A stretch of DNA of 36,638 bases, taken from positions 1 through 36,638 of the forward strand of contig JAADHN010000102.1 of NCBI GenBank assembly GCA_013151865.1, written 5' to 3'. Shown here one piece after another: positions 1,688 through 4,529 of the stretch. The notes beneath the pieces are model-generated. The model saw only the letters and a list, made by a program, of their open reading frames with translations, had not been told where the DNA came from and did no database searches. Position numbers and translations under genes: made by a program. This DNA comes from Kiritimatiellota bacterium (lineage in GTDB: Bacteria; Verrucomicrobiota; Lentisphaeria; Oligosphaerales; JAADHN01). How positions within the stretch are numbered: position 1 is the stretch's first letter; every line of letters starts with the position of its first letter.

Positions 1688-1778
1688 GGAGAGGTGACAG
1701 AGTTGGCCGAATGTGCAGCACTGGAAATGCTGTGTCCCCTCGTTGGGACCCAGGGTTCGAATCCCTGCCTCTCCGCCA
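1688..1778 (+). tRNA. tRNA-Ser (anticodon GGA)
   Basis: The full cloverleaf can be traced by eye. The acceptor stem is GGAGAGG (1688-1694) with CCTCTCC (1768-1774). The anticodon stem CAGCA/TGCTG encloses the loop CTGGAAA with anticodon GGA. A long variable arm follows, as expected for a class II (serine) tRNA. The T arm CAGGG/CCCTG has the loop TTCGAAT (1756-1762). The discriminator base is G1775 and CCA is encoded (1776-1778). It reads UCC/UCU codons. A T-rich run follows the 3' end. The last part of the gene is duplicated downstream (see 1854-1964). Confidence 0.95.
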
Positions 1779-1781
1779 TTT
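1760..1781 (+). repeat. Direct repeat, copy 1 (3' end of tRNA-Ser)
   Basis: The 22 bases from the T loop through CCA and three following T residues are repeated identically at 1943-1964, 183 bases downstream. A duplicated tRNA 3' end is the usual footprint of site-specific integration at a tRNA gene, but no integrase lies between the copies. Confidence 0.8.
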
Positions 1782-1853
1782 TGTTTCGCTCGGCGGTGCG
1801 GTTCGGCGCGGAGAAAGCCCGGCTCTCGCAACGGAGCAGGGATGAGAGCCCTG

Positions 1854-1964
1854 CCAGGGTTCGAGCGCCGCTCCCGCCGCGCGGGAGCGGCACGGGCTGC
1901 AATTCGCTGTGCGTATTGCAGCAGCGCACGTGAGTGCGCGTCAATCCCTGCCTCTCCGCCATTT
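1854..1964 (+). repeat. Broken second copy of the tRNA-Ser T arm and 3' end enclosing three hairpins (tRNA-derived or att-like remnant)
   Basis: CCAGGGTTCGA (1854-1864) matches tRNA positions 1750-1760, and 1943-1964 matches 1760-1781, so the T arm and acceptor 3' strand occur again but split inside the T loop. The 78 intervening bases are almost entirely three perfect stem-loops: 1867-1876/1882-1891 (10 bp), 1896-1903/1915-1922 (8 bp) and 1924-1929/1934-1939 (6 bp, GTGA tetraloop). CAGGG (1855-1859) can still pair with CCCTG (1946-1950), so the whole piece could fold as a multi-branched RNA. It may be an attachment-site remnant with a palindromic insertion, or a tRNA-derived small RNA. Confidence 0.6.
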
Positions 1965-2708: not shown

Positions 2709-4529
2709 GTGAAAACTTTGAAAAAACGTCCGGACGACCGGGAAATCTCGACAGCCCAGAAAGAAGGCATTCGGCGATTGCTTGCCGCCATGGCGGGGCT
2801 GCCGGGGATGCCGGGCGGTCGAAAGGGGGGACGAAGGCAAGTCGACGAAACTGCGGACAGGGACCTGGATCTGGATCTGCCGCCCCCGGGAGAGCGGTAT
2901 GTTCGTCAGGACGAGATCACCCGCGGTGGAATGGGGGCCATTTACCGGGCGTTGGACCGCGTGGTCGGACGGATTTCGGCCATGAAACTGGCCTTGCCGG
3001 AGATCCTCACCGACCCGGAAAACTCCTGTCGATTTGTGACCGAAGCCAAGATCACCGCGCTGCTCGAGCATCCCAATATTGTTCCTGTACACGATATCGG
3101 CAGGAGCGACAAGGACGGTCTTTTCTTCATTATGAAATTGGTCGCCGGCGAGCCATTGAGCACGATCTTGTACAAGCTTGCCCAAGGAGATCTGGACTAC
3201 ACTCGCCGATACGACCGCCATGACCTGCTGGTCATTTTTCGAAAGGTTTGCGACGCCGTTGCGTTTGCCCATTCCCGAGGCGTCATCCACCGGGACATCA
3301 AGCCGCATAACATCATGGTGGGGCCGTATGGTGAAGTCCTGCTCATGGATTGGGGACTGGCCAAGTTCGAGGACCTTCCGGAAGGATCGGGACCGGCTTT
3401 GGATGCCAAGCGCGTGCGCAGCGTGCCTGCGCTGAGCGCCACGACCGACGGCGTGGTGAAAGGCACCCCCTCGTACATGGCCCCGGAACAGGCGGCCGGG
3501 CGCGGGCGGGACGTGGACCGTCTCACGGACATTTACCTCCTGGGAACGACGCTCTACCACATCGTCACGCTCGAACCGCCGTTCACCGGGGTGGATGCCG
3601 AAGAAATCCTGTTGAAGGCAATGGGCGGGCGTCTGATCCCCCCGAATGAACGCAATCCGGCCTGCCAGGCGCCCGAGGAGTTGTGGCGCATTATCCGCAA
3701 ATGCGCGGCCCGCCGTAAGGTCGAGCGATACCAGAGCGTCGAGGAACTCGTTGCCGACCTCGACGCCTGGATGGCGGGGCGCATTCTCTCCCAGCACCGC
3801 CGTTTTGAACCGGGCGAGTACCTGATGAGGTCCGGAGAGATCGGTGCGGAGGCTTACCTGATCGTCAACGGTCGGGTCGAGGTGTTCGAGAAGATCGGCG
3901 GACGGAAAGTCTCCCTGAACGAGCTGGGCCCGGGAGACATTGTGGGTGAAATGGCTCTGTTGACGGACGAGACGCGCTCGGCCAGCGTGGTCGCCCTGGC
4001 CCCCACAGAGGTGCAGATCATTACGCGTGAAACCATGCACCAGGTGCTCCGGGGACTCCCCCCCTGGATGGATGAAGTCGTCACGACCCTGGCCCGTCGC
4101 CTTCAGAACGCCAATGTCAATATTCATCCGTTGATGGCCGGCGACTGTACGTACCAGGTGTTGAACCAGTTTTTCCTGGAAGCCCGTCTGCAGACCGCTT
4201 CGCCGCTCGGGGCCGGAGCGGGGCCCCTCCCCGGGCTCGACCGCGAAACAGCGGCCCGGCGTATCGCGCTCTGCCTGGCTGTGCCGTCCGGACGGGTGCG
4301 CCGGGTCCTCGATGTCGCGGTCGAGGAAGGGTTGCTCGCCCCCGGGCCGTCGGGGGAACTTGTCATCGTTGAGCCCGTTCGATTCAAACAGCTTCTCGTC
4401 CACTGCGAGCAGCTCGCGGGTCGTGGATCGGGCGCCGCTGAGGCTGCGGGCGTCGCCCTGTCGAAAGACGAGAAGGACGAGTTCGACAGGATTCACGCCC
4501 GGATCATGTCCCGGTTGCGCCGCGAATGA
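2709..4529 (+). CDS. Ser/Thr protein kinase with C-terminal cyclic-nucleotide-binding domain
   Basis: Hanks-type (PknB-like) kinase of 606 residues starting at a GTG with GGAG 7 bases upstream. The kinase domain spans about residues 62-345: glycine loop RGGMGAIYRA, ATP lysine K93 in SAMKLAL, catalytic loop HRDIKPHN with D196, DWG instead of DFG at D214, activation-segment end YMAPEQ, and a conserved LTDIYLLGTTLYHI helix. All catalytic residues are present, so it should be active. Residues about 355-470 form a cNMP-binding (Crp/cAMP-kinase type) domain with EPGEYLMRSGE and GDIVGEMALLTDETRSA. The last 120 residues look like a helical or winged-helix tail. No transmembrane helix or extracellular sensor is visible, so the cNMP domain is the likely input. 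It is 80 bases after the ACT-domain gene, but no shared function is evident. Confidence 0.9.
   Translation: MKTLKKRPDDREISTAQKEGIRRLLAAMAGLPGMPGGRKGGRRQVDETADRDLDLDLPPPGERYVRQDEITRGGMGAIYRALDRVVGRISAMKLALPEILTDPENSCRFVTEAKITALLEHPNIVPVHDIGRSDKDGLFFIMKLVAGEPLSTILYKLAQGDLDYTRRYDRHDLLVIFRKVCDAVAFAHSRGVIHRDIKPHNIMVGPYGEVLLMDWGLAKFEDLPEGSGPALDAKRVRSVPALSATTDGVVKGTPSYMAPEQAAGRGRDVDRLTDIYLLGTTLYHIVTLEPPFTGVDAEEILLKAMGGRLIPPNERNPACQAPEELWRIIRKCAARRKVERYQSVEELVADLDAWMAGRILSQHRRFEPGEYLMRSGEIGAEAYLIVNGRVEVFEKIGGRKVSLNELGPGDIVGEMALLTDETRSASVVALAPTEVQIITRETMHQVLRGLPPWMDEVVTTLARRLQNANVNIHPLMAGDCTYQVLNQFFLEARLQTASPLGAGAGPLPGLDRETAARRIALCLAVPSGRVRRVLDVAVEEGLLAPGPSGELVIVEPVRFKQLLVHCEQLAGRGSGAAEAAGVALSKDEKDEFDRIHARIMSRLRRE

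Follow-up and report, generated by a model that had tools for sequence, protein, structure and literature searches.

We examined a stretch of 36,638 nucleotides (hereafter the window; contig JAADHN010000102.1 of a Kiritimatiellota bacterium, class Lentisphaeria), in which an intact tRNA-Ser(GGA) gene is followed on the same strand by a non-coding unit made in part from pieces of that tRNA. The gene beside the unit (2068-2628) encodes a protein with two ACT domains, the next gene (2709-4529) encodes a Ser/Thr kinase that also has a cyclic-nucleotide-binding domain, and no mobile-element gene was seen adjoining the unit in the window. The features of the locus, in window coordinates, are:

1688-1778, + strand: tRNA-Ser(GGA), intact, with encoded CCA (ARAGORN; Rfam tRNA 54.7 bits)
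1761-1778, + strand: the duplicated 18-nt tRNA 3′ end, from T-loop position 59 to CCA
1779-1835, + strand: spacer (tRNA trailer)
1834-1953, + strand: the whole unit of the TLR/RtT type (see below), in the extent matched by a covariance model made without the host genome
1836-1843, + strand: 5′ strand of helix P1, GCAGGGAT, an inverted copy of the tRNA-specific T-stem/acceptor start, pairing with 1944-1951 and showing covariation across elements
1844-1862, + strand: a conserved GA, then hairpin P2, GAGCCCT/AGGGTTC (1846-1852 with 1856-1862)
1854-1864, + strand: second copy of the left T-arm half, CCAGGGTTCGA
1865-1942, + strand: hairpin module of P3 (1867-1891), P4 (1896-1922) and P5 (1924-1939, GTGA loop), ending CGTC, fold z -5.0
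1943-1964, + strand: second copy of the tRNA 3′ end, AATCCCTGCCTCTCCGCCATTT, encoded CCA included

The left T-arm half CCAGGGTTCGA occurs at 1750-1760 and again at 1854-1864, a spacing of 104 bases, and the 3′ end AATCCCTGCCTCTCCGCCATTT at 1760-1781 and 1943-1964, a spacing of 183 bases. These coordinates agree with a first-pass annotation of the sequence, which had noted 11- and 22-base pieces of the tRNA recurring in order downstream and had held that chance could not explain the longer one; this holds, as a 22-mer shared by two such segments is expected 4e-9 times by chance. The last 19 nt of tRNA-Ser(GGA) are covered by the 22-bp identity.

Folding of the 78 nt between the copied pieces (1865-1942) gave three successive hairpins with a minimum free energy of -53.4 kcal/mol (z = -5.0; 0 of 200 shuffles as low), which confirms the three hairpins, one with a GTGA tetraloop, that had been reported there. 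P3 has 11 bp and a CGC loop, P4 has 8+3 bp with an internal mismatch, and P5 has 6 bp and the GTGA loop, and the description of all three stems as perfect is therefore correct for two of them but not for the middle one. Positions 1836-1852 hold a third tRNA-derived element that the first-pass annotation had missed, the inverted T-arm GCAGGGAT-GA-GAGCCCT. When 1836-1964 is folded (z -5.5 for RNA, -5.2 for DNA), the best structure joins GCAGGGAT to the copied ATCCCTGC at 1944-1951 and GAGCCCT to AGGGTTC at 1856-1862, the P2 region being the remainder of the inverted T-arm opposite the left T-arm half. The two T-stem halves had been thought still able to pair with each other; in the best fold, however, their partner is the inverted T-arm. 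P1, which joins the inverted arm to the copy of the tRNA end, is thus predicted to enclose the three hairpins in a closed multi-branch structure. The motif GGATGAGA..GGTTCGA in the 1844-1862 region is common to Escherichia coli RtT and many relatives.

The inverted arm is fitted to its own tRNA. Across 21 distinct units, 94 of 126 positions of the arm were paired with the 3′ end of the cognate tRNA, compared with 65.8 ± 4.4 when tRNAs were permuted, and none of 20,000 permutations reached 94. In a unit that had merely been transplanted the arm would be independent of tRNA identity, whereas the arm observed tracks the tRNA. Likewise, RNAalifold recovered P1, and at one of its pairs as many as 8 of the 20 sequences had compensatory changes on both sides. 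In a single genome (G115) near-identical hairpin modules of 43-44 nt lie behind tRNA-Ser(CGA), tRNA-Arg(TCT) and tRNA-Pro(GGG) (loci L090, L105 and L106), each with its own matching P1, and the module therefore appears to spread within a genome while its tRNA-derived parts are renewed.

The window unit is very probably a tRNA-linked repeat (TLR) of the RtT type attached to tRNA-Ser(GGA). Each of the 22 TLRs of E. coli, which occur behind tRNA or 5S rRNA genes, ends in an exact repeat of the final 18-19 bp of the RNA gene before it (PMC8144298); the window unit (1836-1964, + strand) lies downstream of its tRNA (1688-1778, + strand) in the same orientation and shares 22 bp with it, and it has the RtT architecture of an inverted T-arm (GGATGAGA..), the left half GGTTCGA, hairpins and a copied 3′ end. 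In covariance searches, one of the checks that the first-pass annotation had suggested, the Rfam model RF00391 (RtT) matched nothing in the window at a threshold as loose as E 10, and a custom model (R2) gave 44.4 bits (E 3.6e-9), with the runner-up site in the window at 14.5 bits. The custom model was made from 18 units, including those of E. coli and Salmonella tyrT as well as PVC bacteria, and holds no sequence of the host genome. As RF00391 is silent in the window, the link to RtT rests on the custom model and on the architecture. RF00391 did, though, score 54.1 bits (cut-off 45) beside tRNA-Ser(GCT) in a genome of the same order (G010), and its sub-threshold matches of 28-38 bits were placed exactly on five units in other PVC genomes (L105, L106, L090, L113 and L051). 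RtT is also reported near tRNA-Asn and tRNA-Lys in Pasteurellaceae (PMC4986893) and is reported to have a covarying tandem-GA motif (PMC7657543), which the conserved GA/GA at the P1/P2 junction of the units may represent. We file the window unit as an RtT-type TLR that has diverged beyond the Rfam model, and it is a fresh instance of a known, neglected repeat class in a distant host. Other candidate matches were rejected: sX4 at 1680-1845 (24 bits, cut-off 70) and similar weak Rfam matches are probably driven by the tRNA itself, and a hammerhead-like core (GATGAG..stem..CGA..GTC) has misfitting core bases and lies in the inverted T-arm, with no ribozyme found in the Rfam search.

Further units were present in the host genome and well beyond it. 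A DNA search located a second host unit behind tRNA-Ser(GCT) on contig C29, the end of which runs into the unit repeat with a period of ~176 bp, and a motif search located others behind tRNA-Asn (C27) and tRNA-Gln (C78); the custom covariance model found the Ser(GGA), Asn and Gln units but missed the Ser(GCT) unit, which is without the GGATGAGA form. An exact scan of GTDB genomes with the tRNA-Ser pattern returned, among chance matches within genes, real units in several Lentisphaerae/PVC genomes and also in Thioalkalivibrio denitrificans and other Gammaproteobacteria. Of the 289 genomes scanned in the phylum, 42 had the pattern GGATGAGAR-N(4-30)-GGTTCGA, with ~70 matches listed against a handful for the reversed control. 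Several pattern matches (for example L071, L076, L077, L088, L096 and L101) have no tRNA and were set aside as chance. In a pattern-free scan, in which the last 18 nt of each tRNA in the fetched loci were sought a second time, we obtained 47 pairs of tRNA and copy, mostly with 0 mismatches, for tRNA-Ser, Tyr, Gln, Arg, Pro, His, Met, Glu and Lys, and the copies normally began at ATCC, 18 nt before the CCA end. Three tandem units also lie behind the tRNA-SeC gene of genome G001 (L131; contig C46, 1159-1528). Related units thus occur behind tRNA-Ser, Tyr, Gln, Arg, Pro, His, Met, Glu, Asn, Lys and SeC in Verrucomicrobiota and Gammaproteobacteria, and where they form tandem arrays the period is 121-184 bp. 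Comparison of the tRNA-Ser(GGA) locus itself among relatives, also suggested earlier, showed the segment at 1 of 28 orthologues (24 with at least 250 nt downstream), and some of these relatives carry units behind other tRNAs with conserved pairing. Hairpin modules of different genomes align poorly, and across phyla the units may share descent or may have converged on a tRNA-derived fold.

Two cases among these have unusual structures. In genome G005 a TLR array is broken inside a hairpin, with the halves of a unit on two contigs (L033, about 3380-3670 of C6, and L034, on C30), and the interrupter looks like an insertion sequence with the terminal repeat TGACACTGAGACACACTTGACACCGTCA. In L055, at the end of contig C1341 of genome G019, a tRNA-Ser(CGA) is interrupted within the T loop itself by a hairpin, and an intact copy is absent; a T-loop intron or a truly split tRNA was considered, but a collapsed repeat is more likely, as the contig ends ~24 bases later.

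Evidence on how new copies arise comes from the lysQ-nadA locus of E. coli, where two loci (L123 and L124; NZ_CP018250.1 and NZ_CP010440.1) form a natural empty/filled pair. The empty lysQ site of strain 10671 reads ..GGTTCGAATCCTGCACGACCCACCAATGTAAAAAAGCGCCCTAAAGGCGCTTTTTTGCTATTCAGG, and the filled site in K-12 has ~102 extra bases followed by a second copy of 54 bases, from ATCC to GCTAT. This direct duplication of 54 bp comprises the tRNA 3′ end, the trailer and the terminator, and ends just beyond the terminator of the tRNA operon. The lysQ unit was matched in 3,209 of 5,426 E. coli genomes (~59%). Other apparently recent units likewise have long duplications of 45-62 bp (L066, L100, L113 and L127), while in older units identity is left in 18 nt alone and the flanks have diverged; by the extent of its identity to the tRNA copy, 22 nt, the window unit is of the older sort. 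From these loci we infer that a module would insert behind a tRNA with simultaneous duplication of the tRNA 3′ end, and that recombination between the duplicated ends would later generate further copies and hence tandem arrays. No enzyme for unit insertion was found. We tentatively propose, at less than an even chance, that TLR/RtT units are mobile, non-autonomous elements of one family that spans at least two phyla, which insert specifically behind tRNA (and 5S) genes and copy the 3′ end of the target RNA gene in both direct and inverted form, each copy thereby being fitted to its tRNA.

With respect to expression, no terminator-like site was found between tRNA-Ser(GGA) and the unit (1779-1835), and from this arrangement the unit is probably co-transcribed with the tRNA. 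Its RNA could be released by cleavage at the copied mature 3′ end, the signal that also matures the tRNA, as has been proposed for E. coli RrB (PMC8144298). The first-pass annotation had also considered a tRNA-derived RNA with an encoded CCA end; the tRNA-derived sequence and the encoded CCA stand, and as a statement about RNA the reading is partly right. RtT is reported as an expressed sRNA in Thioalkalivibrio, where it is up-regulated in the cold (PMC8092127), and for the rrA/B/F TLR RNAs of E. coli transcription and processing have been shown, along with in vitro binding to Hfq and CsrA (PMC8144298), all of which, together with the 18 nt kept identical between diverged flanks, would suit a tRNA-derived regulatory RNA under selection, for example a sponge or a CsrA/Hfq ligand, rather than a mobile repeat. 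However, the 19 tRNA-linked TLRs of E. coli score <0.01 as CsrA-type RNAs, and the sole phenotype claimed for TLRs, an early link to the stringent response, was withdrawn (PMC8144298). Presence is also patchy, both for the lysQ unit and for the unit at tRNA-Ser(GGA), and we consider that a regulatory RNA in place of a mobile repeat is rather unlikely. As to role, a regulatory RNA and a mostly selfish repeat that the host tolerates are equally likely. A more specific proposal, that the copied 3′ end acts as an antidote which pairs with the inverted arm and so shields the precursor tRNA from misfolding, draws on the complementarity of the inverted arm to the tRNA's own T-arm and on equilibrium folding, in which the mean T-stem probability fell from 0.76 to 0.16 when the unit was present. 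The tRNA fold was not, however, rescued by the copy (0.31 without the copy and 0.16 with it), and the copy was better in 1 case and worse in 10 (n = 32) in this equilibrium folding, which leaves the proposal very improbable.

The origin of the unit also invites readings based on site-specific recombination. Tyrosine integrases use tRNA T loops and duplicate the tRNA 3′ end, and the copy in the window begins in the T loop; a phage or island could accordingly have integrated there and been deleted, leaving the duplicated 3′ end as attR, and the first-pass annotation had offered such a scar, followed by insertion of a palindrome, as one of two readings. Against this, all units are non-coding, 121-184 bp long, and have an inverted arm and hairpins common to many tRNAs, the tRNA-specific inverted arm is not predicted by integration, and E. 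coli TLRs also lie behind 5S rRNA genes (PMC8144298). The same design recurs behind many tRNAs in two phyla and in tandem arrays, with no integrase or mobile cargo between tRNA and copied 3′ end in the pairs seen, where the spacers before the first unit are non-coding and at most ~160 bp. Furthermore, none of 64 tRNAs scanned on viral contigs had a copied 3′ end, the tRNA-Ser version of the motif gave 0 viral matches, and not one of the 67 viral matches of a looser motif adjoined a tRNA whose 3′ end is copied. RtT had no match in phage records, and its plasmid matches were all on records typed non-mobilizable, those inspected being in chromosomal gene contexts. An integration scar is therefore most unlikely indeed, and the feature in the window is one recurrent element of the TLR/RtT class and not the scar of a lost island with a separate palindrome insertion.

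An integron-like site recombined as single-stranded DNA has been weighed in the same way. Here the folded unit would rebuild a T-arm-like duplex (GGAT-GA-GAACC against GGTTC-GA..ATCC) for a recombinase, with the tRNA T loop as docking site and the tandem units as empty cassettes. The foldback with its unpaired GA centre, the tandem arrays, the insertion at a fixed base, the DNA fold (z -5.2) and the E. coli empty/filled pair all fit, and integron attC sites share with TLR units the foldback, unpaired central bases and tandem arrays. However, the attC consensus (RYYYAAC..GTTRRRY) is absent, no gene lies in any unit, no integrase lies beside any array inspected, the 54-bp lysQ duplication reaches past the terminator, unlike an att core, and 5S-linked TLRs have no T loop, so that this reading too is very unlikely. 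An integron or att cassette array was rejected on similar grounds, since the units (which end GGGAT..(C)AATCCC) are non-coding, have no attC core and bear the TLR hallmark. Some other units do lie at contig ends (L003 and L055), as an assembly artefact at a repeat would predict, but the window unit is internal to a 36.6-kb contig and its two flanks differ in sequence, and equivalent units occur in single-long-contig genomes (G179, G184 and G311) and RefSeq E. coli chromosomes; an artefact has practically no probability.

TLRs were already known from E. coli in 1978 and still have no accepted function or origin, and the literature found places them in Gammaproteobacteria only; the 178-bp tyrT repeats and RtT RNA reportedly go back to Egan and Landy in 1978 and to Bosl and Kersten in 1991, and TLRs are said to have been described by Rudd in 1999. 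With the layout now seen behind at least ten kinds of tRNA, mostly in PVC bacteria, they become a comparative problem, and the comparative evidence makes the class more interesting than the single window locus. Direct tests are now possible of the conserved design, of the closing helix with its tRNA specificity and of how new copies arise, with the lysQ pair as a start. TLRs are also a source of duplicated tRNA ends and of assembly breaks in genomes, and the stretch between terminators T1 and T2 of E. coli rrnB is carried on many common expression vectors. This T1-T2 stretch is itself a TLR (PMC8144298).

The TLRs of E. coli, like the window unit, lie downstream of a stable-RNA gene and close with 18-19 bp that exactly repeat its 3′ end, although they are found after 5S rRNA too; PMC8144298 treats Enterobacteriales for three rRNA-linked TLRs, and not PVC bacteria. 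The lysQ and lysT TLRs, annotated as RtT sRNA in RefSeq, likewise have a copied tRNA 3′ end (there of tRNA-Lys) and a hairpin module, which ends GAGTC directly before ATCC; the lysT unit has P1 and no P2 hairpin, and the lysQ unit has a weak P1 and a longer P2. One of the closest comparisons is with the RtT repeats of E. coli tyrT, which read ..AATCCTTCCCCCACCACCA, spacer, GAAGGATGAGAAGCTTCGACTAAGGTTCGA, hairpins, GAGT, AATCCTTCCCCCACCACCA and occur as tandem units, as do TLR/RtT units elsewhere. Although the tyrT repeats belong to tRNA-Tyr in enterobacteria and the window unit to tRNA-Ser in a Lentisphaeria/PVC bacterium, and although their hairpin modules are not alignable, both have the identical order of parts, with a GGATGAGA-type inverted T-arm, GGTTCGA and the exact tRNA 3′ end.
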